Assembly (NCBI GenBank): GCA_963678675.1
Contig: OY783191.1
Coordinates: forward strand, 19,843,111-19,907,110
Length of the DNA stretch: 64,000 nt
Source of the DNA: Xiphydria camelus
Lineage: Eukaryota; Arthropoda; Insecta; Hymenoptera; Xiphydriidae
Reading direction: 5' to 3'
Shown: piece after piece, positions 9,671 to 44,356 of the stretch
Numbering within the stretch: position 1 is the first letter of the stretch
Layout: each line of letters starts with the position of its first letter
Position numbers and translations under genes: made by a program
Notes under the pieces: generated by a model
Databases searched by the model: none
The model's input: only the letters and a program-made list of their open reading frames with translations
Told to the model about the DNA's origin: nothing

Positions 9671-9985
9671 ACCGTATGTCCCACTCTGTACATATTGGCC
9701 AGTTTGAAATTACCTTCGGGCAGGCTTGGTCGGTACTCGAGTCATTTAATACCAGTAGAAGTCGAGTCGGTAGTTAGAGTTGGTGTCAATTCGGGAGATC
9801 GAAGCGTCTAACCTTGAAATCGTGGATTTGTGAATTATGGTGAGTAATTTTCATTATTCACAAATTCATAATTTCGAGGTTAGACGTTTTGATCTCCCGA
9901 ATTGACACCAACTCTAACTACCGACTCGACTTCTACCGGTAAAAATTGCTCGAATTCGCCCCGGCCACCAAGTCCGGCCGAAGGT
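9671..9985. mobile_element. Palindrome A, copy 1 (long hairpin MITE)
   Basis: The left arm begins ACCGTATGTCCCACT, runs through GGTCGGTACTCGAGTCA and AGAAGTCGAGTCGGTAG, and turns round near 9840 at an ATTATGGTGAGTAAT loop. The right arm mirrors it to about 9985. Arms are ~150 bp. Other copies or pieces of A are at 22.9, 25.4, 32.2, 34.4, 39.7, 41.3 and 43.0 kb, most of them touching a CCCCGAYAGC transposon. Confidence 0.8.
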
Positions 9986-22663: not shown

Positions 22664-22953
22664 GTGTTACGTCCCAATAGCAACTCAATTTAATATTTTC
22701 TCAGGTGCACCTATTCGAACTAACTTATTACCCACCAATCTATTTTTTCACACTATACAGCTTAGTCTGGCAGGAACAGCGACTCTATTGTCTAGCGTTA
22801 ACAGCTCATTCATTTCGTTCTCACCACGGCCCGGCCTAAACAGCGAGTGTGAATAACTACGGATGTTTAGTCTACCGTATGTCCCACTCTGTACGCGGGC
22901 CAGTTTGAAGTTACCTTCGGGGAGGCTTGGTCGGTACTTGAGTCATTTAATAC
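22664..22953. other. Possible LTR start, then a fragment of palindrome A
   Basis: 22,664 begins TGTTACGTCCC, similar to the start of many Gypsy LTRs in insects, but no matching end is found. 22,874-22,951 is the outer arm of palindrome A (ACCGTATGTCCCACT ... CATTTAATACC). Confidence 0.4.
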
Positions 22954-23121
22954 CCCCGATAGCCAAGTTTTGTCACTACGAGCGCACTGTGCCGTCACGC
23001 GGTGGAGTTAGGAAACATCACAGTGACCTTATCGTGCGTGCCCCCGCGGACGTCACAGTGGCGACACGGAGTGGCGACGGCGAGTGAGTTTACTGTGACT
23101 GCACAGCGATCGTAACTACCG

Positions 23122-23335
23122 TACACCCGTGCTCACGAAATCTGTCGCTGGTGACTTTTTTTAAACCTTATTTTTAAACGTACTAACCAGTGAACAATTA
23201 ATTCTCATGCCCTCATTAGCTACGGTGACGTCTACTCTCGTTAATGAAAGCACGAGGATTGATTAATCATTGGTTAGTACGTTTAAAAATAACATTTAAA
23301 AAAAGTCACCAGCGACAGATTCCGTGAGCCCGGGT
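23122..23335. mobile_element. MITE D (214-bp palindrome)
   Basis: TACACCCGTGCTCACGAAA and CTGTCGCTGGTGAC pair with GTCACCAGCGACAG and GAGCCCGGGTGTA; the stem continues through TTTAAACGTACTAACCA. It abuts palindrome B1. Confidence 0.75.
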
Positions 23336-23708
23336 GTATGTATCATGCCAAATTGAACAAGCAGATATACCGACACTGCCGAAACTTTACCGACGGTCAA
23401 GGATTTTATAGTTAGAGTTGGCTTGAGAAGAGTGCGCTGTGTGTGCTGCGTGAGAGCGAAAAGTGTCAAACGTCTGATTTCCCGATAGCTGTCAATTCGG
23501 AAAATCGAAGTATTGAATAATAGATGAAACACTTCGATCTCTTGAATTAACAGCTATCGGGAAATCAGACGTTTGACACTTTTCGTTCTCACGCAGCACA
23601 CACAGCGCACTCTTCTCAAGCCAACTCTAACTATAAAATTCTTGACCGTCGGTAAAGCTTCGGCAATGTCGGTATATCTGCTTGTTTAATTTGGCATGAT
23701 ACATACGG
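23336..23708. mobile_element. Palindrome B, copy 1 (mariner-type MITE)
   Basis: ~373-bp palindrome with arms starting GTATGTATCATGCCAAATT, then ACCGACGGTCAAG, then TTAGAGTTGGCTTGAGAAG, down to a loop near 23,520. Orientation of the slightly asymmetric centre is opposite to copy 2. Confidence 0.85.
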
Positions 23709-23821
23709 TACAACAGCACTGTACAGTAACGCGGTGCGCTTTCAAAATAAAATTGTCGGTATGTAGATTTTGCAAAAAAGGAACGCACACAGTGACTTTA
23801 CCCGCCTAGAGGTGTCGCTTC

Positions 23822-23945
23822 TTCTTTTTTTTTTTCCGTGCCCCACCGGGATTTGAACCTGCGATCTTTGGAATATCCTAGGCCAGATGCCTCGAGACTG
23901 GGAAACGTTTTCGCATTACGCCACCAACTCTTCGAGAGATGTTGG
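23822..23945 (-). mobile_element. tRNA-derived SINE
   Basis: Read on the minus strand: a box A-like GGTGGCGTAATGCG, then a box B GGTTCAAATCCC, then GGTGGGGCACGG and an A-rich tail. It matches the SINE at 40,875-40,983. The acceptor stem does not close, so it is not a tRNA gene. Confidence 0.65.
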
Positions 23946-24269
23946 TCGACTCCAGTCATATATAGAAACCGGACATGACAGTGACTGCTCTCGAAGGTTC
24001 TCGTTAAATTTTCTAAAATAATTTGATATGTTCTTTTTCAAAACAGTAGCGATTATGATAATTATCCATTCACTATTTATAGTAGAATATTCGTCAAGAA
24101 TCATGTTAAAGTTAACCATTAGCGCCAAGCGTCTTATGTATAGGACGGCTATTTGGAATGTTTTTCTCATAACCTCTGAGTAACAAATCATGCAATTTTC
24201 GTAAAGAAAATGCACCAGAAATTAATTTGGGCTTTAATGGGTTAAGTTCACGATGGAATTTTTGTATTA

Positions 24270-25185
24270 TTAGGTGTTGGAATTAATTTGTAGCGTCGAT
24301 CTTAACAATACCGTATGTATCATGCCAAATTAAACAAGCAGATATACCGACATTGCCGAAACTTTACCGACGGTCAAGAATTTTATAGTTAGAGTTGGCT
24401 TGAGAAGAGTGCGCTGTGTGTGCTGCGTGAGAGCGAAAAGTGTCAAACGTCTGATTTCCCGATAGCTGTTAATTCAATAGATCGAAGTGTTTCGTCTATT
24501 ATTCAATACTTCGATTTTCCGAATTGACAGCTATCGGGAAATCAGACGTTTGACACTTTTCGCTCTCACGCAGCACACAAAGCGCACTCTTCTCAAGCCA
24601 ACTCTAACTATAAAATTCTTGACCGTCGGTAAAGTTTCGGCAATGTCGGTAATTCTGCTTGTTTAATTTGGCATGATACATACGGTAAATGGCACGCAGG
24701 TAGTACAGTATTTCGTTGTTACCGACAGTAATGTAATATCGTAAAAACATCACAATTTAATTGTAAGAATTCTTTATACATAAGTGTTTGACATGAGTCT
24801 TGATGGACTAATGCCTCCAAATCATTATCATCAAATTTATTCGGCTCCTTGTCATCCAAGTCGAAATCACCAGCTTTAAAACGTGCAAACCACTTCCGAC
24901 GCGTTTGCTCGCAGCTAGAGCATGTACACTTCCACTAAATACGTAGCTGCACTTTTGTTCATATTAAAATAATAAAGCAAAACTCCCCGCAAGAACACGT
25001 TATTCGGCACAAATTTTGATATATTCAATAAATTATTATAAAATGTTGTTATTTATGATTTGAAAAAAGGTTATGTACCAACCAAGTTGGGAGTTGACTT
25101 ATCACCAGTAGGAAAACGTCTTAAAAGTTTGGGCATGATCATATCGTTTCATTAAAAAACGCTACGAATTAATTCCAACACCTAA
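24270..25185 (-). mobile_element. Deleted mariner element, split by palindrome B2
   Basis: Inverted ends TTAGGTGTTGGAATTAATT / AATTAATTCCAACACCTAA next to TA. Without the 375-bp B2 insertion it matches the 537-bp mariner remnant at 40,003-40,539. The remains of the transposase N-terminus are on the minus strand. Confidence 0.75.
24311..24685. mobile_element. Palindrome B, copy 2 (TA duplication proven)
   Basis: 375 bp from CCGTATGTATCATGCC to GGCATGATACATACGG, with TA on both sides. The uninterrupted site (GCCATTTATTGTTAAG) is seen three times in the tandem array at 40.5, 42.2 and 43.97 kb, which confirms a TA target duplication. Confidence 0.9.
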
Positions 25186-25413
25186 TATATAATTTTTAAT
25201 TTTTATTGAACAATTTGGATTTTTTAAAAGATTAAGTCACAGTGGCGTCACAGTTACGTCACCCAGTGACAATCACTCCGTGGCATCCCAGTAACGTATG
25301 AGTAACGTCACTCGGTGACAATCACGCGGTGGCGGCACAGTGAAGCTCCCGTGCCAACACGGCGTGCTGCCACCGCGTGACGCTCGGGTGAAAGTCACGC
25401 TTGGCTATCGGGG

Positions 25414-25570
25414 ACCGGTAGAAGTCGAGTCGGTAGTTATAGTTGGTGTCAATTCGGGTGATCGAAGCGTCTAACTTCGAAATTATGAGCTTGTGAATAA
25501 TGGAAATTACTCACCATTATTCACAAATTCATAATTTCGAGGTTAGACGCTTCGATCTCCCGAATTGATA
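25414..25570. mobile_element. Palindrome A, copy 2, interrupted
   Basis: Left and right arms of A from ACCGGTAGAAGTCG to CCCGAATTGATA. The rest of the right arm (TACCAACTCTA) resumes at 31,841 beyond the 6.3-kb transposon that landed in it. Confidence 0.8.
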
Positions 25571-26257
25571 CCCAGATAGCAAAGTGGCGCCACCGTGACT
25601 GCACACTGCTTTCACGCGGTGTATTCGAGTGCATGCACTGGGGTGTCCATCTGTCTGTGCACCGTGAAGCCACGCTGCAGTCACGCAGTGTGAGCACCGA
25701 GTGGAAGCACTGTGGCGTAACAGGGTGACTCCACAGTGCTTGTACTGTGAGATGATGGTGTAGACCCAGTGGCTTCGCTGTGAAGTTATCATATGGACTA
25801 CAGGGATGTATTCTAATAAAATATTTATATTAAAAAACAACATTTCTTTTACTATTCCATTTATTAAATGAACATATTGTAGCTGGAGATCCCAATATTA
25901 ACATATCAAAATGTATTATCCGTCAATTCCCGGGAAAATTTATAATTAATTAAAAACTATCGAAGTTTTGGCCCTAAGCCACTTTATAGTATAGTCTTAT
26001 TAGATATTCGCGAAACAATTTATTAGTGTCAGGATAAAACCGGTACCAATCGATAGGAAAAAATCTCCTGAATGACATATAGAAATGGGTAATCTTCAAA
26101 TTGACGAGAAATAATGTAATTAATTAAAAACTACCTGTCAAAATCACATGCCAACAAATCGCGAAGCTATATTTTTTCTGTAACCAATTTCATAAATAAA
26201 AATATCCCAATGTACAGGAGAAAATTCTTTACAAGTTTCAAGTCGGAACTTATTATA

Positions 26258-26422
26258 CATATCGATACCTTACTTTGAAAACCTCATAAGTGCAATTTTG
26301 GACAAAAATGCCATTTATAGCTTACTGCGTTAAGATTTAAAATCTGAACACACAGTAAGCTATAAATGGCATTTTTGTCAAAAATTGCACTTACGAGGTT
26401 TTCAAAGTAAGGTATCGATATG
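26258..26422. repeat. 165-bp hairpin
   Basis: CATATCGATACCTTAC...GCCATTTATAGCTTA pairs with TAAGCTATAAATGGC...GTAAGGTATCGATATG. Repeated in copy 2 at about 35,327-35,490. Confidence 0.8.
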
Positions 26423-26959
26423 TAATTCAAATTGGCTTAAATCGATCAGCTGATCGTTACGCGACGCTCCTTTATTACGCGTGCAACTAACGGAGGAAAG
26501 CGCGTTCCGCAATCTATTCAAATTTATACTCTTTTTCCTGGGCATCCTAGATTTACTCGATCAAAAAAATGAAGCTACCAATTTGTAGCGGGGAAAATTT
26601 ACTATGAAATTGATGCAAGAACCTACTTGACAAAATGCACGGTTAATTTATAATAATTTTTTGAAAGTCCCGGTGTACGAAAGTACAATAAGCTGCGCAT
26701 GTCGCGTTTTACGTGGTCGCCATGAGAACAGCTGATTGCTTGGCGAAACATGCTCAGGGGTGCTATTCTCGACGCGTGGGAAATGCTTTTCGTGGACGAA
26801 ATATTTTTCGTTAACGGACGTAAAATTTCGTCGATCACTTTCGTTAACGATTCGAATATCCCTTCCAAGATAGATCTCGTCAACGAAATTAATTTTCTCA
26901 CACGAAAAATGTGTTTACATCCTTTATAGCGACGTCTTCTTTTTAGAATCTCGTTTAAT

Positions 26960-29128
26960 AGGTGCCCATACACACAGAGGTCGAACTGTCGGTTTGGAAC
27001 GGCAGTTCGAACCGTCGGGTCGATCCGTCGGTTTTAACCGTCGTCGTCCACTAACGCAGAATAGAAACCCGCGGGTAAAACTGACAGGCCGGCCGGCCGC
27101 AAAACTGCAGATCGACCCGTAGTGTCGACCGACAGTAGACGGGCTGAGAAAATCGATTTTGTTGCGCTTGTACTTTATAAGTGTACGATTTTAATTCTTC
27201 TTTTTTTAAAATACTCGGAAAAATATATAGAACAAATGTGACATAAAGCCAAAGTTTGCTTTTTAATTTTTAATACAAATGTATTTTTTGTACGGCTTTT
27301 TCTTTAAATATCTCGAAAACTATTGACAAGTTATCGAGACATGCTCCGGAAAAAATTTAGAGAATTTCAAGATGAAACGATTGGTTTTTATCTCATTTTG
27401 TTACGATGAATAGTTCTCGAGATATTGAATTTTATATATAAATACGCGCCGTAGCGCCCGCGCGCTCTTGTAAACAAATGCCTCTAACTTCACTAAAAAT
27501 TGGTATTTTTCGATGATTTTTGTTTTGTTTTAAAAGTAATGAAATATTGCAATCATCAGAAACAAAAATTTGTCAATTTTTTCGGGTTTACGCCAGAGCA
27601 TCAAAGTGCATTTACACGTTTTAATAGCGAAAAAGGTTTTTTTCGTAGAAAATTCAATGTACTCCTTTTTTAAATACTCACTTGATATAAACATAATTTT
27701 CAAAATTATTAGTTTACCAAAATAATTGAGTATTGCTTCGTTTCGGAGTCGAGAAGCTCGAGTTTAGCGTTTCCCGCAGGTGCGACAAGGATAACGCGAC
27801 GTGAGTTCATGCGTCAGAGAGATAATCTCAATCTCGTATAGAATGAAATCGTTGAAAATAGCAATTAAACCTCGGTTTTTTATAATGTCACGTCATGGAC
27901 AACTAGATTTACTACTAACTATCAATTCGGGGAAAACAATAGGGATCATCGATACACTCAGGACATTTTATATCGCAAAAGAATATTCTGTTCCTACTAA
28001 CCTTTCTTTGTCCTTCGATCTCTCTCTCTCTCTTCCTCCTCCTGTCGGCCGTGGGATCCTTGCTCCGAGGGGTGGATCGAAAGGGGTGCGCTCTCTCCTT
28101 GATCACTCACTTTAGGTAGCACGACAGGGATAGAAATTGAGGTTTCCACAAATCACAGTCTCGGAACTTCTTTATTTAGTACAGAACACGCGTTACTCGA
28201 GGAAAAAGACAAAAGACCAAAAGCTAAAAGGCAAAAGGCAAAAGGCTCTGCCGGTGTCCAGGATTCTCCTTATATATGCCGTTAGACTTCGTCCCGGGTG
28301 GGGATCCTTCCTGATGTTGAAAAGGGGAAGGAGAAGGAATGCGTTGAATCATGGAGCTTCTTCCTGTCAGCGGCTCACCGATGATCTCTTGGCGTCTTGT
28401 TTTTCGCTGGTGCATTTCCTTTAATGCTACGCAGGTGGCACGTGTAGGTTTTCGCGCCTTCGCCTTGCGCGAGGGTTCGTGTTACTCGCGGTGCAGTTTT
28501 GGATCGGTGCGGAGTCGGCATTCCGGTCTTCGTAGCGGGCTTGCTCGTCGCTATTTGATTCCTCTTATTCTATCGCTTTACTCGCCGCTGCGTTTTATTC
28601 CATGAAAACGGCTACGTTAGGACGTTACAATAACTTTTACTAATTTTAGTTATAATACTAATCAACAGAAAAATTACGTTCAAGTTGGACACAAAACGTG
28701 ACCGATGAAAAAAAAAATGTTGGAAGATTTAATAATTTATTTTACTATTTTTTAAAGAATTAAGGCTTTATAAAATTGCAAGAGGTTATTAAAAGTAATG
28801 AATTATATCTAAGGATATTCTGAAATTAATAATCTTCATCATCGTTTTGCATGAGAGAGACCGGTGAATTACTATTACATACTTCTTCCCTGTAATAATA
28901 ATTATATTTTCATGTTCAATATCGTTAGCGGTACGAACCGACGTTCCGTCTGTCGTGCTAAAACGCATGTTAGTGGACGGCGGCAGTTTTTCCCGTCGGT
29001 CTGGACTGACGGGTCAGCCTGACGGTTCGATCTGGCGCGTCGCGCGCCCACTAACTGAAAGGTAAAACTGCCGGTTCGAACCGCGCCGTTCCAAACCGAC
29101 AGTTCGACCTCTGTGTGTATGGGCACCT
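26960..29128. mobile_element. 2169-bp element with AGGTGCCCATACAC ends
   Basis: Inverted ends AGGTGCCCATACACACAG (26,960) and CTGTGTGTATGGGCACCT (29,128). Imperfect arms of ~200 bp contain tandem CGAACTGTCGGTT / GACGGTTCGA words. Copy 2 of the host transposon has the empty site (CTCGTTTAATCACTTAG), giving an AAT or TAAT duplication. The ends resemble Harbinger elements elsewhere in the window (AGGTCCAGATACACATG; GGGGCCCATACACTG). No transposase; a solo LTR sits inside. Confidence 0.7.
27886..28629. mobile_element. Solo LTR, 744 bp (ATAA duplication)
   Basis: Starts TGTCACGTC and ends GACGTTACA, i.e. TG...CA with a short inverted repeat, as in Gypsy LTRs. ATAA is duplicated at 27,882-27,885 and 28,630-28,633. 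No internal retroelement sequence lies beside it, so it is probably what remains after recombination between two LTRs. Confidence 0.65.
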
Positions 29129-29792
29129 AATCACTTAGCAACGACCCGTCGCATCGGCCCACCACCTCGTCATGCAACTCACCGGCATACAAATACCAAA
29201 CAACATTCGTTGACGAAAACAGCGAGAACGACGAATGACAATTTCGTCAACGAAAAAAGTAATTTCGTTAACGAAGGAGTTTCGTATGGGAAAAAATTCC
29301 GTGTACAAAATTTCTCAAACGAAATAATAATTCCGTTCACGAAATCGTTTCTGACGTGTCGAGAATTGCCCCCCAGGGGCAATTGCGTTTTGGTTGAGAA
29401 ATTTTGTACGCGAAATGTTTTCCCATACGCGCGAAACTCCTTCGCTAACGAAATTACTTTTTTCGTTGACGAAAGTGTCATTCGTCGTTCTCGCTGTTTT
29501 CGTCAACGAATGGGTTTGGTATTTGTCCGAGGCGGTGGGCCGATGCGACGGGTCGTTGCTAAGTGATTAAACGAGATTCTAAAAAGAAGACGTCGCTAAG
29601 GGATGTAAACACATTTTTCGTGTGAGAAAATTAATTTCATTGACGAGATCTATCTTGGAAGGAATTTTCGAATCGTTAACGAAAGTGATCGACGAAACTT
29701 TAAATCCGTTAACGAAAAATATCTCGTCCACGAAAAGCATTTCCCACGCGTCGAGAATAGCTCCCCTGAAATTACTTTCGTACACCGTGTTC

Positions 29793-30790
29793 ATTTTCCG
29801 CATGTCTCCCTTGAGCTTCTCCATCACCACGAATATCCTCTCCGGCGTCTCGAACATCCTCTCGAGATTAACGACTCCGCTGTGGGACAGATTCTGCAGG
29901 ATGGCTACTTCGTTCTTGAGCTGGGCCTTTTGCTCGGTGGTAAAACGCAGCTTGTCGATCACCTTTATCGCCATCGCGCGGCCGGTCTTGCGATGAACTC
30001 CGCCGTAGATGATATCAAATTAACCCGAGCCAAGAACTTCGTCCGGGAAGATGTGATAGAGCTGCGACATGTCGGTTACGCGTTCCTCTGGCTCGGTTGT
30101 CGACTGCTCCTACCGACCTGTGGAAAACGACGCGTGTTTTTCGGTATAGCGTCGGTACGCGTTCGCGCGCACACTCGCGAGCTCTGAACGTACTTGCCGA
30201 TCCGGAGGTGACGGGCATCAATGCCTGCCTGATATTCGTTTTCCAGGTCCTCGCCAAGTGAGCGCCAACGCCACTTTCCGGCGGTGGAAGCTGACCACTA
30301 GCACCTCCATAGAGGGGATCTTCGGCAACGTAGTAATCGACGTTGGCCGTTCTCAATTCGAAACAATGCATCGTGCCTGGAAGGAGAGAACGCGCGCGTT
30401 GTACATCGACTAAACGCGCACAGACAATTTCTAACGATATACATATGTACTCACGAGAATGTTGTTCCCTGGCGGCGGCGACGACTAGAATTTCAGCCAA
30501 CGGAATCTCTTTGAAGTACTTGGAACTGCTGTCGCTTTGGAACAGAATTATGGCCTTTGTGTCCAATCGCCAGTAGTGTCTCTTCCTCTGAAAACACGCG
30601 CGCCTTAATGATGGGGGAAGCGAAACCGAATCAGCGCCACGTCGTCAACCTACCATCGGATCGCGATTCGTCGAGTGCACCATCCATCCTTCCTTCAGGA
30701 TCTTGGAGCCGCGTCGTTTCATGTGCTTGGCGCTTTGAACTATTCACATCAGCGGTATATTGTTACTCGGCGATGAGCTGCACCTGCGTT
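29793..30790 (-). pseudogene. PKD: Captured protein kinase D fragment with introns, copy 1
   Basis: Four minus-strand exon pieces with clear splice signals: ~30,782-30,654 (linker, SNNIPLM then GSKILKEGWMVHS), 30,597-30,455 and 30,376-30,194 (PH domain: [46 protein letters not shown]), and 30,117-~29,793 ([44 protein letters not shown]). Introns run GTAGGT...TTTTCAG, GTGAGT...CTTCCAG and GTACGT...CCACAG. This is the order found in animal protein kinase D, from just before the PH domain to the hinge of the kinase N-lobe. It is dead: TGA after NNIPLM, TAG after the third intron, and TAA in the glycine loop (GSG-stop-F). The catalytic loop and C-lobe are absent. Because introns are present it was captured as DNA. 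Confidence 0.85.
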
Positions 30791-30894
30791 ATCGCGTACG
30801 AGGTACCAAGTGTGACGGAGGGAGTGATGGAGAAGAAAAAAAGATAAAGTATCGCAAGTGTCGAGATACGACGTTGATTGAATAATTACCTCGA

Positions 30895-31440
30895 TGGTCT
30901 GGAATTTTGAAATTCGTCGGAAGATGCGTCGTCATGGCACGGAACGAGGTCCTATGGAAATATCATACGCCTAAAACGATTCTTAGTGCGCTTTCCTCGT
31001 GTTTCCTTGTGTTTATGCGATTAGAGGGGGGATGATGACAGGTTGGCTTATTGTCACTTCGCTGTAGACTCCCAGCATAGCTCGGTCGTTCGCAAGGGCC
31101 TCTTCGGTGTCCCGGAGCTCCCGAGGCGGTTTCTCGCGAGGGTCGCTCGTTTGGTGTTCCTCTGCTGGCCTTTGCGGTCTTTCGTCAACCGACGCTATGT
31201 AGCGGCGGCCATGATGGCGTTCGTGCCACGAGGGAACTCGATACGACAGACTTCGTAATCGTCGAATACTGCTTAAACGCCGGCCTCGCCGCACTTCCAT
31301 TTCACTTATTCGCACTGCTCCGTGAACACCACCATGCACTTTTTATCGCACTCACTCGCGAAAAACCCGACTAAAGTTCCGAATTTCGTAGGAGCGATCC
31401 GCCACACGTCCGCACTGCTCGACCACCGAACCTTTAAATT
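30895..31440 (-). other. Second coding-like stretch in the capturing transposon
   Basis: Minus strand 31,339-31,013 is open for 108 codons (EMEVRRGRRL, then VPSWHERHHGRRY). A second frame reads FDDYEVCRIEFPRGTNAIM. Both recur in copy 2 at 39,176-38,889. GC and codon composition resemble the PKD exons rather than the AT-rich left half, so it may be another captured host piece, possibly a 5' exon. I cannot identify the gene. Confidence 0.35.
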
Positions 31441-31855
31441 ATTTAATTACGAACACGCGTGTTCCCTGCGTATTAAAATGATTGAGTTAACCCCCGTACT
31501 AAAATCTTGAAATTTGCGTAAAACTATGTTGGCGTGCCGCGGGAGCTGCGTGTTCCGCAGCGAATTCATTAATTCGTTAACAATTTTGTGAAGACAGTGA
31601 ATTTACCGATATTCATGGTCGGTAAATTTACGAAGTGTGCACGTCGAAAAGGCACCGTGACTGCACTGAGTGTAACCACTGTGTCTTTATCCTGTGAACC
31701 ACTCCGTGTGCTCACTGTGTAGCCACGGTGCTTTTAGTTTGTGTACGCCACGCGATCACGCCACGGTGAGACCACAGTGGTGCCACTACGTGGCAGCACT
31801 GCGTGCGGCTAGCGTGTAAATCCACGCTTTGCTGTCGGGGTACCAACTCTACCTA

Positions 31856-32230
31856 CCGTATGTATCATGCCAAATTAAACAAGTAGAATTACCGACATTG
31901 CCGAAACTTTACCGACGGTCAAGAATTTTATAGTTAGAGTTGGCTTGAGAAGAGTGCGCTGTGTGTGCTGCGTGAGAGCGAAAAGTGTCAAACGTCTGAT
32001 TTCCCGATAGCTGTCAATTCGGAAAATCGAAGTATTGAATAATAGACGAAACACTTCGATCTATTGAATTAACAGCTATCGGGAAATTAGACGTTTGACA
32101 CTTTTCGCTCTCACGCAGCACACACAGCGCACTCTTCTCAAGCCAACTCTAACTATAAAATTCTTGACCGTCGGTAAAGTTTCGGCAATGTCGGTATATC
32201 TGCTTGTTTAATTTGGCATGATACATACGC
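31856..32230. mobile_element. Palindrome B, copy 3
   Basis: 375 bp, CCGTATGTATCATGCC to GGCATGATACATACGC, next to TA. It abuts the stub of palindrome A copy 2 (31,841-31,855). Confidence 0.85.
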
Positions 32231-32426
32231 TATAACTACCGACTTGACTTCTACCGGTATTAAATGTTTCGATTACCGACCAAGCCTCCTTAAAGGTAAC
32301 TTTCAAACTGGCCCGTACAGAGTGCCCCGATAGCCAAGTTTTGTCACTACGAGCGTACTGTGCCGTCACGCGGTGGAGTTAGGAAACATCACAGTGACCT
32401 TATCGTGCGTGACCACCGTATGCCTA
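32231..32426. repeat. Fragments of palindrome A and of a CCCCGATAGC end
   Basis: 32,236-32,324 is an inverted outer arm of A (ACCGACCAAGCCTCC; CAAACTGGCCCGTACAGAG). 32,325-32,424 is a truncated transposon end (CCCCGATAGCCAAG; TCACTACGAGCG; CACGCGGTGG). Confidence 0.7.
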
Positions 32427-32622
32427 CCCCGATAGCAAAGTGGCACCACAGTGACTGCACCCTGCTTTCACGCGGTGCATTCGAGTGCATGCACTGGGGT
32501 GTCCATCTGTCTGTGCACCGTGAAGCCACACTGCAGTCACGCAGTGTAAGTACGATGGTAAAAGTAGAATTTTGCAAAAAGGGGGCGATAAAGTAGGATT
32601 TCCCGCCTGCCTTATCCGCCTA

Positions 32623-32650
32623 CTAGAGAGAGAGAGAGAGAGAGAGAGAG
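32623..32650. repeat. (AG)14 microsatellite
   Basis: Fourteen AG dinucleotides at the tail side of the SINE. Confidence 0.95.
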
Positions 32651-32651
32651 T

Positions 32652-32770
32652 GTCGGTTTTTTTTTCTCAAACCCGACCCGGCCAGGACTCGAACCTGCGA
32701 TCTTTAGAAGACTGGGAACGCTTCTCGCATTCTACCAATTGCGCCATCGACTCTTTGTGGTGGAAGTCGA
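32652..32770 (-). mobile_element. tRNA-derived SINE with tRNA-Arg-like head
   Basis: Minus strand: GATGGCGCAATTGGTAGAATG (box A with D-loop), AGTCTTCTAAAGA (an anticodon-loop-like CTTCTAA), GGTTCGAGTCC (box B), then GAGAAAAAAAAACC and the AG repeat. The acceptor stem does not pair and there is extra sequence before the anticodon region, so this is a SINE head, not a tRNA gene. It shares CCCAGTCT and AAAGATCGCAGGTTC with the SINE at 23.9 kb. Confidence 0.65.
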
Positions 32771-33671
32771 CTAAGTTATACATATAATATCGATACCTGA
32801 AAGCAACAGTACTGTGACTAGTGAGATAAAGCCGAAAGCCGATTTCGAGCTATGTCAAACGTAAACTAAATTTTAAATATTTTTGCCGAGATATCTCAGT
32901 GTTGCACTGTGTAAAGGCCGGTTTATATATATATATATCTCATTAAATTTTTAAAAATAATTTGATACTTTCTTTTTCAAAACAGTAGCGATTATGATAA
33001 TTAATTATTCATTATTTATGAAATAATTCAGTACAATTTGCACTGTTTGAAACATTATTATAATATCAATTTTGTTATTTTCTAATTTAAAAATTCTTCT
33101 ATCGGGGTGTGAAATCAATTAATTGTAAATTTACAACCGCACACATCCGCAGATCAAAATTTGTAACTAGTCACAAATTGCTTTCTGGGAACAAACCTAT
33201 TATTATATCAATTTTGTTATTTTCTAATTTAACACATTCGCTGCCACTTTTAGATTGATTGCATCGCGCTCAGTGCCGGTAACAGACTGAATAATTATGT
33301 AATGTGCACGTCAATGTGTCTCCGATCGGAGCCGGCGGCACAGGCGCGAAGTGTCGACTGGCTCCGATCGGAGCCGGCGGCAGCAAACGACGTGTTAAAA
33401 ATTTTGTGAAGACAATGAAGTTACCGACATTCATGGTCGGTAAATTTACGAAGTGTGCACATCGAAAAGGCACCTTGACTGCACTGAGTGTAACTACTGT
33501 GTCTTTACGCTGTGAACCACTCAGTGTATTCACTGTGTAGCCACGGTGCTTTTAGTTTGTGTACGCCACGCGATCACGCCACGGTGAGACCATAGTGGTG
33601 CCACTACGTGGCAGCACTGCGTGCGGCTAGCGTGTAAATCCACGCTTTGCTGTCGGGGTAGCAGACCATAA

Positions 33672-34330
33672 TTGTATAATTAATTAGGAATTACTCCTAT
33701 CGTTTGGAAATAGTTTGGGGATATTTAGGAAATTAGTTTCAGATTTTGGGAAACGTTAATTAATTTATTATAAATTATTTTTTACTTGACCGTATAGATA
33801 GCAGATATAGATTAGAAATTGTCAAATTACAGTCGAATCAATTGGAAATCATTTGGGGAATTGAACCCTATTGTTAATTTCATTTGGGAAACAATATTTA
33901 TGTAATTAATAATTAATTATCGTTCCACAGTGAAAACTGTTTTATTAATATATCATACCTAAATACGTTGACGGTTACCGACTGTTAGATACCTAGGTTT
34001 ACATAATTTGATAATTAATTAGGTAGTAATTACTCCTATCTTTTGGAAATAGTTTGGGAATATTTAGGAAATTAGTTTCAGATTTTGGGAAACGTTAATT
34101 AATTTATTATAAATTATTGTTTACTTGACCGTATTAGGTAGATAGCAAATATTAATTAGAAATTGTCAAATTACAGACGAATCAATTGGAAATCATTTGG
34201 GGAATCGAACCCTATTGTTAATTTCATTTGGGAAATAATACTTAGGTAATTAATAATTATAATTATCGTTCCACAGTGAAAACTGTTTTATCAATATATA
34301 ATAAATACGTTGACGGTTACCGACCGTTAC
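33672..34330. repeat. Tandem duplication, two ~339-bp copies
   Basis: TTACTCCTAT at 33,691 and 34,030, then GGAAATAGTTTGGG, TTGTCAAATTACAG, AATCATTTGGGGAA and ACGTTGACGGTTACCG recur in order with few differences. AT-rich, non-coding. Confidence 0.85.
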
Positions 34331-34409
34331 AGCCCGTTCACACGATACGGTTTTTTCCCGTTTCGGTATTTTACCGAATCCGTTTTTTTACCGTGTGCTG
34401 CAGTGGCGC

Positions 34410-34604
34410 ATACCGTATGTCCGTCTCTGTACTGGCCAGTATGAAAGTTACCTTCGGATAGGCTTGGTCGGTAATCGAGACATTTATACCGTAATTATAA
34501 TTATTTTCGTAATTTCCATTATTCACAAATTCACAATTTCGAGGTTAGACGCCTCAATCTCCCGAATTGACATCAACTCTAACTGCCGACTCGACTTCTA
34601 CCGT
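34410..34604. mobile_element. Palindrome A, copy 3 (internally deleted)
   Basis: Outer left arm (ACCGTATGTCCGTCT; GGCTTGGTCGGTAATCGA) is joined at ~34,495 to the right arm (ACAATTTCGAGGTTAGACG ... GACTTCTACCG). The left inner arm is gone. Transposon copy 2 starts directly after it. Confidence 0.7.
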
Positions 34605-35822
34605 CCCCGATAGCAAAGTGGCGCCACCGTGACTGCACACTGCTTTCACGCGGTGTATTCGAGTGCATGCACTGGGGTGTCCATCTGTCTGTGCACCGTG
34701 AAGCCACGCTGCAGTCACGCAGTGTGAGCATCGAGTGGAAGCACTGTGGCATAACAGGGTGACTCCACAGTGCTTGTACTGTGAGATGATGGTGTAGACC
34801 CAGTGGCTTCGCTGTGAAGTTATCATATGGACTACAGGGATGTATTCTAATAAAATATTTATATTAAAAAACAACATTTCTTTTACTATTCCATTTATTA
34901 AATGAACATATTGTAGCTGGAGATCCCAATATTAACATATCAAAATGTATTATCCGTCAATTCCCGGGAAAATTTATAATTAATTAAAAACTATCGAAGT
35001 TTTGGCCCTAAGCCACTTTATAGTATAGTCTTATTAGATATTCGCGAAACAATTTACTAGTGTCAGGATAAAACCGGTACCAATCGATAGGAAAAAATCT
35101 CCTGAATGACATATAGAAATGGGTAATCTTCAAATTGACGAGAAATAATGTAATTAATTAAAAACTACCTGTCAAAATCACATGCCAACAAATCGCGAAG
35201 CTATATTTTTTCTGTAACCAATTTCATAAATAAAAATATCCCAATGTACAGGAGAAAATTCTTTACAAATTTCAAGTCGGAACTTATAGTCTACGATGCA
35301 CCGTTTTTGTGTAATAAATTATTATACATATCGATACCTTACTTTGAAAACCTCGTAAGTGCAATTTTGGACAAAAATGCCATTTATAGCTTAATGCGTT
35401 AAGATTTAAAATCTGAACACAGTAAGCTATAAATGGCATTTTTGTCAAAACTTGCACTTACGAGGTTTTCAAAGTAAGGTATCGATATGTAATTCAAATT
35501 GGCTTAAATCGATCAGCTGATCGTTACGCGACGCTCCTTTATTACGCGTACAACTAACGGAGGAAAGCGCGTTCCGCAATCTGTTCAAATTTATACTCTT
35601 TTTCCTGGGCATCCTAGATTTACTCGATCAAAAAAATGAAGCTACCAATTTGTAGCGGGGAAAATTTACTATGAAATTGATGCAAGAACCTACTTGACAA
35701 AATGCACGGTTAATTTATAATAATTTTTTGAAAGTCCCGGTGTACGAAAGTACAATAAGCTGCGCATGGCGCGTTTTACGTGGTCGCCATGAGAACAGCT
35801 GATTGCTTGGCGAAACATGCTC

Positions 35823-36660
35823 AGGGGTGCTATTCTCGACGCGTGGGAAATGCTTTTCGTGGACGAAATATTTTTCGTTAACGGACGTAAAATTTCGTCG
35901 ATCACTTTCGTTAACGATTCGAATATCCCTTCCAAGATAGATCTCGTCAACGAAATTAATTTTCTCACACGAAAAATGTGTTTACATCCCTTAGCGACGT
36001 CTTCTTTTTAGAATCTCGTTTAATCACTTAGCAACGATCCGTCGCATCGGCCCACCACCTCGTCATGCAACTCACCGGCATACAAATACCAAACAACATT
36101 CGTTGACGAAAACAGCGAGAACGACGAATGACAATTTCGTCAACGAAAAAAGTAATTTCGTTAACGAAGGAGTTTCGTATGGGAAAAAATTCCGTGTACA
36201 AAATTTCTCAAACGAAATAATAATTCCGTTCACGAAATCGTTTCTGACGTGTCGAGAATTGCTCCCCAGGGGCAATTGCGTTCTGGTTGAGAAATTTTGT
36301 ACGCGAAATTTTTTCCCATACGCGCGAAACTCCTTCGTTAACGAAATTACTTTTTTCGTTGACGAAAGTGTCATTCGTCGTTCTCGTTGTTTTCGTCAAC
36401 GAATGGGTTTGGTATTTGTCCGAGGCGGTGGGCCGATGCGACGGGTCGTTGCTAAGTGATTAAACGAGATTCTAAAAAGAAGACGTCGCTAAGGGATGTA
36501 AACACATTTTTCGTGTGAGAAAATTAATTTCATTGACGAGATCTATCTTGGAAGGAATTTTCGAATCGTTAACGAAAGTGATCGACGAAACTTTAAATCC
36601 GTTAACGAAAAATATCTCGTCCACGAAAAGCATTTCCCACGCGTCGAGAATAGCTCCCCT
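35823..36660. repeat. 838-bp inverted-repeat module with TTCGTTAACGAA words
   Basis: The arms begin AGGGGTGCTATTCTCGACG and end CGTCGAGAATAGCTCCCCT; the inner part is a second palindrome (GAAACTCCTTCGTTAACG and its complement). It abuts the 3' edge of the PKD fragment, right after the codons for KGDMREM, so it may have brought or cut the captured gene there. Confidence 0.7.
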
Positions 36661-36689
36661 GAAATTACTTTCGTACACCGTGTTCATTT

Positions 36690-38650
36690 CCCGCATGTCT
36701 CCCTTGAGCTTCTCCATCACCACGAATATCCTCTCCGGCGTCTCGAACATCCTCTCGAGATTGACGACTCCGCTGTGGGAGAGATTCTGCAGAGGATGGC
36801 TACTTCGTTCTTGAGCTGGGCCTTTTGCTCGGTGGGAAAACGCAGCTTGTCGATCACCTTTATCGCCATCGCGCGGCCGGTCTTGCGATGAACTCCGCCG
36901 TAGATGATACCAAATTAACCCGAGCCAAGAACTTCGTCCGGGAAGATGTGATAGAGCTGCGACATGTCGGTTACGCGTTCCTCTGGCTCGGTTGTCGACT
37001 GCTCCTACCGACCTGTGGAAAACGACGCGTGTTTTTCGGTATAGCGTCGGTACGCGTTCGCGCGCACACTCGCGAGCTCTGAACGTACTTGCCGATCCGG
37101 AGGTGACGGGCATCAATGCCTGCCTGATATTCGTTTTCCAGGTCCTCGCCAAGTGAGCGCCAACGCCACTTTCCGGCGGTGGAAGCTGACCACTAGCACC
37201 TCCGTAGAGGGGATCTTCGCCGACGTAGTAATCGACGTTGGCCGTTCTCAATTCGAAACAATGCATCGTGCCTAGAAGGAGAGAACGCGCGCGTTGTACA
37301 TCGACTAAACGCGCACAGACAATTTCTAACGATATACATATGTACTCACGAGAATGTTGTTCCCTGGCGGCGGCGACGACTAGCACTAAACGTACCAAGC
37401 GGGGTCAAATAACCCCTTTCAAAATTTACTTAAAAATCGTACATTCATTGTTATTTCTTTCGTTCATTTGACTTTCTGTAAATTCTTATATCATCTGATT
37501 ATTCAATTTCTCGCTCTCCCTTTTTCTCGTAGCTTATTTTTTATAGCGAAAAATTCTTTACCTACCTTACGTACCACGAGGGGTCATTTGACCCCATACG
37601 AAGTTTACGTATTTGTCGGCAGTTCTCCTTAGTTCTAAACTCAAATATGCTTCTGAAATGAAGGTTCTATTTATCTAAACCTCATATATGTGTTTGGTTT
37701 CGGCGCGAGCACTTGGACGGCCGGATCGGGTCCATATGACATAACGCACAAACAAACAAGACTCTTATCGGAGAAACAAGCACTGTTCCCTCCCAGTATA
37801 CTGCTAGTTCTCTATAGCTAAACGAAATAGAAATGCAGTCGTATATTGAGTCAAAGAGCAAAGATCAGAGCGTATAATAAATCAAGTTCGACAAGGAGTG
37901 ACATGACAGTTTCCATTACATTGTGACAATTTCTGTTATATTCAATTCGCCTTCTGTTTTACTGTAACACCACAAATTTTACGAAGAAGAAAAAGAAAAC
38001 CAACCAGAAGGAATACCAAGCAGTTCCAACAATAATTCGCAATCATGGAAGAAATGTCAAGTAAGATTGTGCACAGGCAATAATACAATTCAAACTTGTA
38101 TAATGTGTAAAAGATTTGTCTGCGGGAAATATGCGAAGGAGAAACCAACTATCTGTAAAAGAAGGAATTAATTGATTATTTTGCTTACAGAAATAAAAAT
38201 ATGTGTTTGATTATTTTATTAGAAATCATAAATTATGTTGCAAATTATTTCCTTTAATAAATTAGGAATTTCTTTCTGAAAATAAACATTTATTTCATAA
38301 GGGGTCAAATGACCCCTCATGGTAAGAATAGGTAGGTGTAAAGTACCGGTATGTTTAGTGCTAGAATTTCAGCCAACGGAATCTCTTTGAAGTACTTGGA
38401 ACTGCTGTCGCTTTGGAACAGAATTATGGCCTTTGTGTCCAATCGCCAGTAGTGTCTCTTCCTCTGAAAACACACGCGCCTTAATGATGGGGGAAGCGAA
38501 ACCGAATCAGCGCCACGTCGTCAACCTACCATCGGATCGCGATTCGTCGAGTGCACCATCCATCCTTCCTTTAGGATCTTGGAGCCGCATCGTTTCATGT
38601 GCTTGGCGCTTTGAACTATTCACATCAGCGGTATATTGTTACTCGGCGAT
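36690..38650 (-). pseudogene. PKD: Captured protein kinase D fragment, copy 2
   Basis: Same four exon pieces as copy 1: ~38,650-38,520; 38,463-38,365 continuing at 37,383-37,350; 37,271-37,089; 37,012-~36,690. It shares the TGA, TAG and TAA of copy 1, so the fragment was dead before the element multiplied. Here the glycine loop reads GSG-stop-FGII and the PH exon keeps VDYYVGEDPLYG. A 2-bp insertion near 36,792 shifts the frame before [13 protein letters not shown]. The second exon is cut by the piggyBac-like element. Confidence 0.85.
37384..38360 (+). mobile_element. 977-bp piggyBac-like element with CTAG duplication
   Basis: Ends CACTAAACGTACC and GGTATGTTTAGTG, with subterminal GGGGTCAAATRACCCC palindromes typical of piggyBac-like elements. 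Copy 1 of the host transposon has the empty site (GACGACTAGAATTTC), so the duplication is CTAG, not the usual TTAA. Near 38,030-38,165 a remnant reads CQVRLCTGNNTIQTC and MCKRFVCGKYAKE, like the C-terminal cysteine-rich domain of piggyBac transposases. The rest of the transposase is deleted. Confidence 0.75.
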
Positions 38651-39714
38651 GAGCTGCACCTGCGTTATCGCGTACGAGGTACCAAGTGTGACGGAGGGAG
38701 TGATGGAGAAGAAAAAAAGATAAAGTATCGCAAGTGTCGAGATACGACGTTGATTGAATAATTACCTCGATGGTCTGGAATTTTGAAATTCGTCGGAAGA
38801 TGCGTCGTCATGGCACGGAACGAGGTCCTACGGAAATATCACACGCCTAAAACGATTCTTAGTGCGCTTTCCTCGTGTTTCATTGTGTTTATGCGATTAG
38901 AGGGGGGATGATGACAGGTTGGCTTATTGTCACTTCGCTGTAGACTCCCAGCATAGCTCGGTCGTTCGCAAGGGCCTCTTCGATGTCCTGGAGCTCCCGA
39001 GGCGGTTTCTCGCGAGGGTCGCTCGTCCGGTGTCTCTCTGCTGGCCTTTGCGGTCTTTCGTCAACCGACGCTATGTAGCGGCGGCCATGATGGCGTTCGT
39101 GCCACGAGGGAACTCGATACGACAGACTTCGTAATCGTCGAATACTGCCTAAACGCCGGCCTCGCCGCACTTCCATTTAACTCAGTGAGCTTCGCACTGC
39201 TCCGCGAACACCACCATGCACTTTTTATCGCACTCACTCGCGAAAAACCCGACTAAAGTTCCGAATTTCGTAGGAGCGATCCGCCACACATCCGCACTGC
39301 TCGACCACCGAACCTTTAAATTTAATTACGAACACGTTCCCTGCGTATTAAAATGATTGAGTTAACCCCCGTACTAAAATCTTGAATTTTGCGTAAAACT
39401 ATGTTGGCGTGCCGCGGGAGCTGCGTGTTCCGCAGCGAATTCATTAATTCGTTAACAATTTTGTGAAGACAGTGAATCGGGCATATTCATGGTCGGTAAA
39501 TTTACGAAGTGTGCACGTCGAAAAGGCACCGTGACTGCACTGAGTGTAACCACTGTGTCTTTATACTGTGAACCACTCAGTGTGCTCACTGTGTAGCCAC
39601 GGTGCTTTTAGTTTGTGTACGCCATGCGATCACGCCACGGTGAGACCACAGTGGTGCCACTACGTGGCAGCACTGCGTGCGGCTAGCGTGTAAATCCACG
39701 CTTTGCTGTCGGGG

Positions 39715-39774: not shown

Positions 39775-40002
39775 CCCCGATAGCCGAACGTGACTTTCAC
39801 CCGAGCGTCACGCGGTGGCAGCACGCCGTGTTGGCACGGGAGCTTTACTGTGCCGCCACCGCGTGATTGTCACCGAGTGACGTTACTCATACGTTACTGG
39901 GATGCCACGGAGTGATTGTCGCTGGGTGATGTAACTGTGACGCTACTGTGACTTAATCTTTTAAAAAATCCAAATTGTTCAATAAAAATTAAAAATTATA
40001 TA

Positions 40003-40539
40003 TTAGGTGTTGGAATTAATTCGTAGCGTTTTTTAATGAAAAAATACGATCATGCCCAAACTTTTAAGACGTTTTCCTACTGGTGATAAGTCAACTCCCA
40101 ACTTGGTTGGTACATAACCTTTTTTCAAATCATAAATAACAACATTTTATAATAATTTATTGAATATATCAAAATTTGTGCCGAATAACGTGTTCTTGCG
40201 GGGAGTTTTGCTTCATTATTTTAATATGAACAAAAGTGCAGCTACGTCTTTAGTGGAAGTGTACATGCTCTAGCTGCGAGCAAACGCGTCGGAAGTGGTT
40301 TGCACGTTTTAAAGCTGGTGATTTCGACTTGGATGACAAGGAGCCGAATAAATTTGAAGATAATGATTTGGACGCATTAGTCCATCAAGACTCATGTCAA
40401 ACACTTATGTATAAAGAATTCTTACAATTAAATTGTGATGTTTACGGTATTACATTACTGTCGGTAACAACGAAATACTGTACTACCTGCGTGCCATTTA
40501 TTGTTAAGATCGACGTTACAAATTAATTCGAACACCTAA
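40003..40539 (+). mobile_element. Deleted mariner element (unit 1; also units 2 and 3)
   Basis: Ends TTAGGTGTTGGAATTAATT / AATTAATTCGAACACCTAA beside TA. Remains of the transposase N-terminus are readable: HYFNMNKSAAT, then FKAGDFDLDDKE and FEDNDLDALVHQDSCQT. These match the helix-turn-helix part of mariner transposases. Stops and frameshifts break it and the catalytic domain is gone. Counterparts at ~41,736-42,272 and ~43,469-44,005. Confidence 0.75.
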
Positions 40540-40874
40540 TAATACAAAAATTCCATCGTGAACTTAACCCATTAAAGCCCAAATTAATTTCTGGTGGATT
40601 TTCTTTACGAAAATTGCATGATTTGTTACTCAGAGGTTATGAGAAAAAAATTTCAAATGGCCGTCCTATACATAAGACGCTTGGCGCTAATGGTTAACTT
40701 TAACATGATTCTTGACGAATATTCTACTATAAATAGTGAATGGATAATTATCATAATCGCTACTGTTTTGAAAAAGAACATCAAATTATTTTAGAAAATT
40801 TAACGAGAACCTTCGAGAGCAGTCACTGTCATGTCCGGTTTCTATATATGACTGGAGTCGACCAACATCTCTCG

Positions 40875-40983
40875 AAGAGTCGGTGGCGTAATGCGAAAAC
40901 GTTTCCCAGTCTCGAGGCATCTGGCCTAGGATATTCCAAAGATCGCTGGTTCAAATCCCGGTGGGGCACGGAAAAAAAAAAGA
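40875..40983 (+). mobile_element. tRNA-derived SINE (unit 1; also unit 2)
   Basis: GAGTCGGTGGCGTAATGCG, then GGTTCAAATCC at 40,948-40,958 (box B), GGTGGGGCACGG and an A10 tail. The unit 2 copy (42,608-42,716) has a box B change (GGTTCAAATTCC). Confidence 0.65.
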
Positions 40984-41257
40984 AGCAACACCTCTAGGCG
41001 GGTAAAGTCACTGTGTGCGTTCCCTTTTTGCAAAATCTACATACCGACAATTTTATTTTGAAAGCGCACCGCGTGACTGCACAGTACTGGTGTAGTGACG
41101 ATCGCTGTGCAGTCACAGTTACCTCACTCGCCGTTGCCACTCCGTGTCGCCACTGTGACGTCCGCGGGGGCACGCACGATAAGGTCACTGTGATGTTTCC
41201 TAACTCCACCGCGTGACGGCACAGTGCGCTCGTAGTGACAAAACTTAGCTATCGGGG

Positions 41258-41507
41258 GGTAGAAGTCGAGTCGGTAGTTAGAGTTGGTGTCAATTCGGGT
41301 GATCGAAGCGTCTAACTTCGAAATTATGAATTTGTGAATAATGGAAATTACTCACCATTATTCACAAATTCATAATTTCGAAGTTAGACGCTTCGATCAC
41401 CCGGATTGACACCAACTCTAACTACCGACTCGACTTTTACCGGTATTAAATGACTCGAGTACCGACCAAGCCTCCCCGAAGGTAACTTCAAACTGGCCCG
41501 TACAGAG
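41258..41507. mobile_element. Palindrome A, copy 4
   Basis: Full inner palindrome (GGTAGAAGTCGAGTCGG to CCGACTCGACTTTTACC) plus one outer arm ending CCCGTACAGAG. The copy at 42,991-43,240 is identical to the eye. Confidence 0.85.
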
Positions 41508-44117
41508 CCCCGATAGCCAAGCGTGACTTTCACCGGAGCGTCACGCGGTGGCAGCACGCCGTATTGGCACGGGAGCTTCACTGTGCCGCCACCGCGTGAT
41601 TGTCACCGAGTGACATTACTCATACGTTACTGGGATGCCACGGAGTGATTGTCACTGGGTGATGTAACTGTGACGCCACTGTGACTTAATCTTTTAAAAA
41701 ATCCAAATTGTTCAATAAAAATTAAAAATTATATATTAGGTGTTGGAATTAATTCGTAGCGTTTTTTAATGAAAAAATACGATCATGCCCAAACTTTTAA
41801 GACGTTTTCCTACTGGTGATAAGTCAACTCCCAACTTGGTTGGTACATAACCTTTTTTCAAATCATAAATAACAACATTTTATAATAATTTATTGAATAT
41901 ATCAAAATTTGTGCCGAATAACGTGTTCTTGCGGGGAGTTTTGCTTCATTATTTTAATATGAACAAAAGTGCAGCTACGTCTTTAGTGGAAGTGTACATG
42001 CTCTAGCTGCGAGCAAACGCGTCGGAAGTGGTTTGCACGTTTTAAAGCTGGTGATTTCGACTTGGATGACAAGGAGCCGAATAAATTTGAAGATAATGAT
42101 TTGGACGCATTAGTCCATCAAGACTCATGTCAAACACTTATGTATAAAGAATTCTTACAATTAAATTGTGATGTTTACGGTATTACATTACTGTCGGTAA
42201 CAACGAAATACTGTACTACCTGCGTGCCATTTATTGTTAAGATCGACGTTACAAATTAATTCGAACACCTAATAATACAAAAATTCCATCGTGAACTTAA
42301 CCCATTAAAGCCCAAATTAATTTCTGGTGGATTTTCTTTACGAAAATTGCATGATTTGTTACTCAGAGGTTATGAGAAAAAAATTTCAAATGGCCGTCCT
42401 ATACATAAGACGCTTGGCGCTAATGGTTAACTTTAACATGATTCTTGACGAATATTCTACTATAAATAGTGAATGGATAATTATCATAATCGCTACTGTT
42501 TTGAAAAAGAACATCAAATTATTTTAGAAAATTTAACGAGAACCTTCGAGAGCAGTCACTGTCATGTCCGGTTTCTATATATGACTGGAGTCGACCAACA
42601 TCTCTCGAAGAGTCGGTGGCGTAATGCGAAAACGTTTCCCAGTCTCGAGGCATCTGGCCTAGGATATTCCAAAGATCGCTGGTTCAAATTCCGGTGGGGC
42701 ACGGAAAAAAAAAAGAAGCAACACCTCTAGGCGGGTAAAGTCACTGTGTGCGTTCCCTTTTTGCAAAATCTACATACCGACAATTTTATTTTGAAAGCGC
42801 ACCGCGTGACTGCACAGTACTGGTGTAGTGACGATCGCTGTGCAGTCACAGTTACCTCACTCGCCGTTGCCACTCCGTGTCGCCACTGTGACGTCCGCGG
42901 GGGCACGCACGATAAGGTCACTGTGATGTTTCCTAACTCCACCGCGTGACGGCACAGTGCGCTCGTAGTGACAAAACTTAGCTATCGGGGGGTAGAAGTC
43001 GAGTCGGTAGTTAGAGTTGGTGTCAATTCGGGTGATCGAAGCGTCTAACTTCGAAATTATGAATTTGTGAATAATGGAAATTACTCACCATTATTCACAA
43101 ATTCATAATTTCGAAGTTAGACGCTTCGATCACCCGGATTGACACCAACTCTAACTACCGACTCGACTTTTACCGGTATTAAATGACTCGAGTACCGACC
43201 AAGCCTCCCCGAAGGTAACTTCAAACTGGCCCGTACAGAGCCCCGATAGCCAAGCGTGACTTTCACCGGAGCGTCACGCGGTGGCAGCACGCCGTATTGG
43301 CACGGGAGCTTCACTGTGCCGCCACCGCGTGATTGTCACCGAGTGACATTACTCATACGTTACTGGGATGCCACGGAGTGATTGTCACTGGGTGATGTAA
43401 CTGTGACGCCACTGTGACTTAATCTTTTAAAAAATCCAAATTGTTCAATAAAAATTAAAAATTATATATTAGGTGTTGGAATTAATTCGTAGCGTTTTTT
43501 AATGAAAAAATATGATCATGCCCAAACTTTTAAGACGTTTTCCTACTGGTGATGAGTCAACTCCCAACTTGGTTGGTACATAACCTTTTTTCAAATCATA
43601 AATAACAACATTTTATAATAATTTATTGAATATATCAAAATTTGTGCCGAATAACGTGTTCTTGCGGGGAGTTTTGCTTCATTATTTTAATATGAACAAA
43701 AGTGCAGCTACGTATTTAGTGGAAGTGTACATGCTCTAGCTGCGAGCAAACGCGTCGGAAGTGGTTTGCACGTTTTAAAGCTGGTGATTTCGACTTGGAC
43801 GACAAGGAGCCGAATAAATTTGAAGATAATGATTTGGAGGCATTAGTCCATCAAGACTCATGTCAAACACTTATGTATAAAGAATTCTTACAATTAAATT
43901 GTGATGTTTACGATATTACATTACTGTCGGTAACAACGAAATACTGTACTACCTGCGTGCCATTTATTGTTAAGATCGACGCTACAAATTAATTCCAACA
44001 CCTAATAATACAAAAATTCCATTGTGAACTTAACCCATTAAAGCCCAAATTAATTTCTGGTGGATTTTCTTTACGAAAATTGCATGATTTGTTACTCAGA
44101 GGTTATGAGAAAAAAAT

Positions 44118-44356
44118 TGTTGATAGTGGATGGATCAACCAATAAATTTGATTTTTCTTCACTATCAGCAATTAAAGTTGTGGCAGAAAAATAAGGGATA
44201 CACAATGGAATTGGATTACAGTAATGTAGTAACTACTTTATTATTATTTTTTCTTTATCGATATATATTTCCTCTTTCGTATTATACTATCCCAAGTTCG
44301 AATTTATACCGACCTGTCAAACGTGAAGTGTACATGTACCTCACTTTTTTTTTCAT
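44118..44356. repeat. E arm, second cluster
   Basis: Starts GTTGATAGTGGATGGATC directly after truncated mariner-array sequence; matches 20,993-21,229 with small differences. Confidence 0.75.

Follow-up and report, generated by a model that had tools for sequence, protein, structure and literature searches.

Two related elements, A (positions 25571 to 31840, 6270 bp) and B (34605 to 39714, 5110 bp), of the 64,000-nt window, the whole stretch of DNA analyzed, are very probably copies of a non-autonomous cut-and-paste transposon that carries genomic protein kinase D (PKD) DNA of the host lineage, introns included. Together they are best read as a multicopy Pack-TIR. The capture of gene pieces by TIR transposons is already known in animals, and A and B are a further case, one that stands out for its host, its size, and its copy number.

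Ends of the elements

The motif CCCCGAYAGC occurred 13 times in the window, compared with a mean of 0.03 in shuffled sequence. Element A runs between the tips CCCAGATAGCAAAG and CTTTGCTGTCGGGG with TA on either side; its left tip, CCCAGATAGC, differs from the motif at one base. B is likewise bounded by a tip-to-tip pair, and a third element, C (32427 to 33658, 1232 bp), has A-type ends and no PKD sequence. Left and right tips agreed at 12 of 14 bases in A and at 13 of 14 in both B and C, and the family can be described by an imperfect TIR of 14 bp (CCCCGAYAGCAAAG), with terminal tips ending in ...GCAAAG in all three elements, subterminal GTGAC/CACTG-like repeats in the A/B family, and a target duplication of 2 bp at A. 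A single exact 21-base pattern searched against IMG/VR returned no related elements.

Alignment of A with B showed 4034 of 4086 sites (98.7%) to be identical, the 52 substitutions comprising 37 transitions and 15 transversions. The preliminary description of two near-identical elements therefore holds for the aligned sites, but the copies differ by an extra 2172 bp in A and an extra 981 bp in B; similarly, the range given for them, 25571 to 39714, holds both A and B but also encloses the PKD-free C. Resemblance between C and A was seen solely at the left 121 bp and the right 265 bp, each at 95%. As the interior of C is unlike that of A, a cargo-free element is represented only in part, which counts against the main reading.

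Tips that end in ...GCCAAG, or near it, were found on a second group of elements, E1 (22954 to 25413), E2 (39775 to 41257), E3 (41508 to 42990), and a partial E4 (from 43241). Across the ten ends of A, B, C, E1, and E2, the GTGAC/CACTG-like end motifs, which were chosen by eye, reached 50 to 90 per kb, compared with 7.9 per kb in the window and 5.0 per kb in the PKD part. These ends are thus 6 to 11 times as rich in the motifs as the window, and the two subfamilies look related.

Both A and B contain a nested element (26755 to 29768 in A; tips CAGGGGTGCTATTCTCGACGCG and CGCGTCGAGAATAGCTCCCCTG), which therefore predates the A/B split. In A it is itself split by the 2172-bp A-only insertion (26956 to 29127). 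The 981-bp B-only element (37380 to 38360) has ends CACTAAACGTACC and GGTATGTTTAGTG and, by eye, a CTAG duplication, and its empty site is visible in A. An inverted repeat, CGGTGTACGAAAGTA, brackets the nested element of A at 26671 to 26685 and 29773 to 29787, a few bases from where the PKD reading stops.

A five-exon piece of PKD

The minus strand of both A and B carries five exons and four introns of PKD, every intron GT-AG, as had been claimed in outline, spanning from the linker ahead of the PH domain as far as the N-lobe of the kinase. The piece was formerly taken to begin at the PH domain; the extent from PH to N-lobe stood, but ahead of the PH exons there is also a short linker exon. 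In A, this exon (DLVPCHDDASSDEFQNSRPS) lies at 30890 to 30951, with a TAG acceptor directly before it, and the remaining minus-strand exons encode the linker and the start of the PH domain (30654 to 30777), the middle of that domain (30455 to 30587), its end (30194 to 30376), and the kinase N-lobe (29790 to 30117). The introns measure 112, 66, 78, and 76 bp, and the exons join into a single PKD frame with three stops. The same model in B placed five minus-strand exons within 36683 to 38827: exons 1 and 2 at 38827 to 38766 and 38653 to 38530, exon 3 at 38463 to 37350, split by the 981-bp insertion, and exons 4 and 5 at 37271 to 37089 and 37012 to 36683. Resemblance to PKD fades shortly past KLKGDM, near nested TE sequence.

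In the spliced read, Pfam recognized PH (E 1.7e-7) and Pkinase (E 1.4e-14), both passing curated cut-offs. The top two PDB matches of the PH half were protein kinase C D2 type, which is PKD2 (5.8e-32), and protein kinase C nu type (5.8e-31), or PKD3; the kinase half matched CaMK1D and other kinases, with no PKD-named chain among the 60 of 327 matches shown. A protein search gave 2545 proteins with E 0.001 or better out of 4021 candidates, and the closest named full-length relatives among the best 120 of these were hymenopteran PKDs (Cephus cinctus, 83%; Athalia rosae, 84%). A midpoint-rooted tree of 32 rows placed the fragment within a 20-row clade (100/99) in which every named member is hymenopteran, and grouped it weakly (80/72) with two sawflies, Athalia and Neodiprion. 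This nesting inside Hymenoptera points to a host origin of the piece, the host being probably a sawfly or a related wasp.

When the whole window was searched by tblastn (E < 0.1) with 6 of 239 PKD-related proteins, PKD matches were confined to 31020 to 29609 and 38896 to 36502; some of them extend into nested-element DNA, and that portion was excluded from PKD. The same 6 queries found neither C1 domains nor a kinase C-lobe in the window. With no further PKD sequence there, the A/B piece does not appear to be the native PKD locus, and the concern that it might belong to such a locus within an assembly duplication was not borne out in the window. In A, tblastn with PKD-related proteins gave no PKD match from 25692 to 26670, the interior that separates the left TE end from the nested elements; the stretch from the linker exon to the right TE end (30952 to 31575) is possibly an upstream PKD intron.

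Open frames around 31.0 to 31.45 kb of A look coding by eye. A second captured gene was rejected here, as the minus-strand frames had no convincing match: Pfam gave just DUF6584 for three minus-strand frames (E 0.19, below its cut-off), PDB gave 0 matches for one such frame, and none of the 1041 candidates from a protein search with two frames of this interval reached E 0.1.

Timing of decay

The three stop codons previously reported as common to A and B were confirmed in position. A TGA (30746 to 30744 in A) replaces Arg in IPLM(R)IVQ, a TAG (30112 to 30110) comes immediately past intron 4, and a TAA (30022 to 30020) replaces Gln in GSG(Q)FG; of the three, the TAG is the least certain because it adjoins a splice acceptor at a place that varies in real PKDs. 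We infer that the PKD cargo is without coding function.

Constraint was assessed on 30 real PKDs (25 named and 5 unnamed), our own pick from 239, in which 122 columns were invariant. The A/B fragment departs from these at 14 columns: 10 in both copies, two of them stops, 4 in A only, and none in B only (Poisson ranges, 4.8 to 18.4 for the shared and 1.1 to 10.2 for the A-only changes). Leaving out each real PKD in turn gave 0 to 4 private changes, the maximum of 4 belonging to a mosquito, a caddisfly, and an unnamed protein. B retains the common state at the 4 A-only sites, and its own changes occur elsewhere; a B-private 2-bp insertion lies near 36791 in the kinase exon. The mean change per copy after the A/B split was 0.64%. 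Shared changes thus outnumber private ones to an extent that supports the earlier proposal that the bulk of decay predates the split, although the counts are small and part of the changes could sit in the PKD of the host itself.

The sharing of all three stops, and of 10 of the 14 changes at conserved sites, by the two copies would also suit a piece captured from an already dead PKD duplicate, with stops older than the capture. We regard such a source as unlikely, though still credible: the data fit capture followed by decay equally well, and no second PKD copy was seen in the window.

Insertion sites and probable transposition

Likeness between A and B ends at the tips. In the 40 bases inside the tips, 39 of 40 were identical on the left and 40 of 40 on the right, compared with 8 of 40 and 11 of 40 in the bases outside. 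The host site of A is a palindromic element, Pal (25414 to 25570), which resumes to the right of A. After the flanks of A were joined minus one TA, they gave a gapless 96-bp match to Pal copies (seven matches, 86.5 to 94.8%), running 16 bp across the joint, and when the removal of 0 to 8 bases was tried, the joint was gapless with 2 (TA) alone. The same range of removals gave gapless joints at E1 from 2 (AC) alone, with 114 of 118 bases matching, and at E2 from 3 alone, with 115 of 120. Two-base duplications were accordingly read as TA at A and AC at E1; a TA at C rests on inspection by eye, since C had no crossing match at any removal length. For B as for C, no match crossed the joint with 0 to 8 bases removed, neither element has a recognizable empty site, and no target duplication was found at B. 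Either the site of B was rearranged or B came by another way. Pal repeat forms the left flank of A as well as that of B, cut at different offsets, and the right flank of B starts in a different Pal arm and appears rearranged.

The lack of a target duplication at B would suit a segmental duplication, or an assembly artefact, of one locus at which the transposon ends are incidental, as would the position of the copies, which lie 9 kb apart in the same direction and both adjoin Pal, with further tandem duplications in the region (spaced by 1733 bp from 39775). Such an origin is nevertheless improbable, given that likeness stops at the tips, that the insertion points in Pal differ, that A has both a target duplication and an empty site, and that 52 substitutions and two private insertions separate the copies. 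Capture at the DNA level by a TIR transposon, as first proposed, is instead backed by the introns, the tip boundaries, the site of A, and the existence of C, with the same ends and free of PKD.

Under this preferred reading of a transposon that captured PKD DNA, the PKD piece would have been copied into the element through template switching or gap repair. Still with both ends, recognized by a transposase supplied from elsewhere, this hybrid would then have jumped at least once, yielding A and B. The PKD piece would then be a passenger, the ends sufficing for a transposase made elsewhere.

By analogy with the Pack-MULEs of plants, CCCCGAYAGC elements might be taken for a sawfly family that captures genes repeatedly, with numerous host-gene pieces in circulation and small RNAs that match PKD influencing the kinase gene of the host, but the chance of this seems slight. 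It is slighter still for A and B as a putative working regulatory element whose transcripts or small RNAs would act on host PKD. The expected closeness to host PKD, with about 3 to 4% change at constrained codons by a hand estimate, would be favorable, and certain animal Pack-TIRs are transcribed (PMC8277862). Against it, the PKD piece has the same orientation in A and B, so that no PKD hairpin could form between the copies. A retrocopy made through mRNA, or capture by a Helitron, as reported for gene fragments of insects, is contradicted by the results and can be dismissed, since four GT-AG introns count against the former and the inverted tips and target duplication of A do not fit the latter, Helitrons being without TIRs and without target duplication.

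Comparison with known systems

Target duplications of MULEs are longer, 9 to 10 bp in Pack-MULEs, and A and B fall outside that group with a TIR of 14 bp and a duplication of 2 bp (at A). CACTA/EnSpm-like elements have CACT[A/G] tips, subterminal repeats, and a duplication of 2 to 3 bp; the duplication and subterminal repeats found here would fit, but the tips are CCCC, not CACT. Tc1/mariner elements duplicate TA at the target; TA was seen at A and, by eye, at C, and AC at E1 of the related subfamily.

In the two elements, the PKD interior is enclosed by both termini of a single TIR element and is host-gene-derived, with four GT-AG introns and thus not an intronless copy. With nested insertions, the interior measures about 6.2 kb in A and about 5.1 kb in B, and the PKD piece about 1.16 to 1.2 kb.

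The sole animal-wide survey of Pack-TIRs found was that of Tan et al. 2021 (PMC8277862). Across the genomes of 100 animal species it counted 370 Pack-TIRs, spread over 55 of the species; four cases were multicopy, and none came from an insect reference genome. The median captured size was 224 bp, and 323 of the 370 were hAT or TcMariner. A and B resemble the animal Pack-TIRs of that survey in having a host-gene piece between the termini of one TIR transposon, not intronless and in more than one copy; unlike the median Pack-TIR, their piece is about 1.2 kb long and has five exons. The search rules given there call for annotated TEs, an internal size of 100 to 5000 bp, and a unique parent, namely, a TE-free locus elsewhere in the genome that is at least 90% identical, and would probably have missed A and B.

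The insect case in PMC8277862 is Ssk-FB4, from fly populations of Drosophila melanogaster; here too an insect gene was captured by a TIR element, is multicopy, and moved by transposition, and one of its copies is tandemly duplicated. As described there, the TIRs of FB4 are about 700 bp long and its TSDs 9 to 10 bp, compared with 14 bp and 2 bp at A, and Ssk-FB4 is a near-complete expressed gene, whereas A and B hold a dead piece of PKD. Non-autonomous elements with host-gene pieces are also found in plants, as Pack-TYPE transposons and Pack-MULEs (PMC8903248, PMC3310237); MULEs mostly have long TIRs (PMC3310237). Literature on transduplication in insects yielded no insect capture by title and the start of the abstract, and CCCCGAYAGC as literature text gave no transposon paper by title among the matches listed. 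A five-exon capture in two hymenopteran copies is a further insect case beside Ssk-FB4, and the introns and tips of A and B, with the empty site of A, can serve to test the origin of such captures.

Other repeats in the window

Copies of Pal were located at 9671 to 9941, 22874 to 22954, 25414 to 25572, 34412 to 34603, and 41258 to 41507, and the uninterrupted copy at 9671 to 9941 has a long hairpin as its predicted fold. By eye, B (on its left side), E1, and E2 lie at an ACCGGT-like site of Pal, with A close by at a TACC; Pal may thus be a preferred target. From 39775 to 44118, the window contains 1733-bp tandem units made of a 1483-bp E element and a 250-bp Pal piece. Another palindromic element, of about 375 bp, is present in three copies (23336 to 23710, 24309 to 24687, and 31854 to 32233).

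The E elements contain mariner-like remnants (24270 to 25185 and 40003 to 40539) with TTAGGTGTTGG- and CCAACACCTAA-like ends and, by eye, a WFARFKAGDFDLDDKE-like read. tRNA-like sequences in E and C elements (23826 to 24000, 32650 to 32790, and 40807 to 40981; box B GGTTCAAATCC and GGTTCGAGTCC by eye) are probably SINEs, and ARAGORN reported no tRNA. A Harbinger-like transposase (DDE_Tnp_4, 59448 to 60251, E 1.1e-32) and a MADF/Myb-like ORF (61155 to 61595, E 6.6e-17) were found in the region 59448 to 61595. The window also holds a fragment of a Mutator-like transposase at 7274 to 7906 (PF20700, E 1.5e-41) and the integrase of a retroelement at 11988 to 13010 (Integrase_H2C2, rve).
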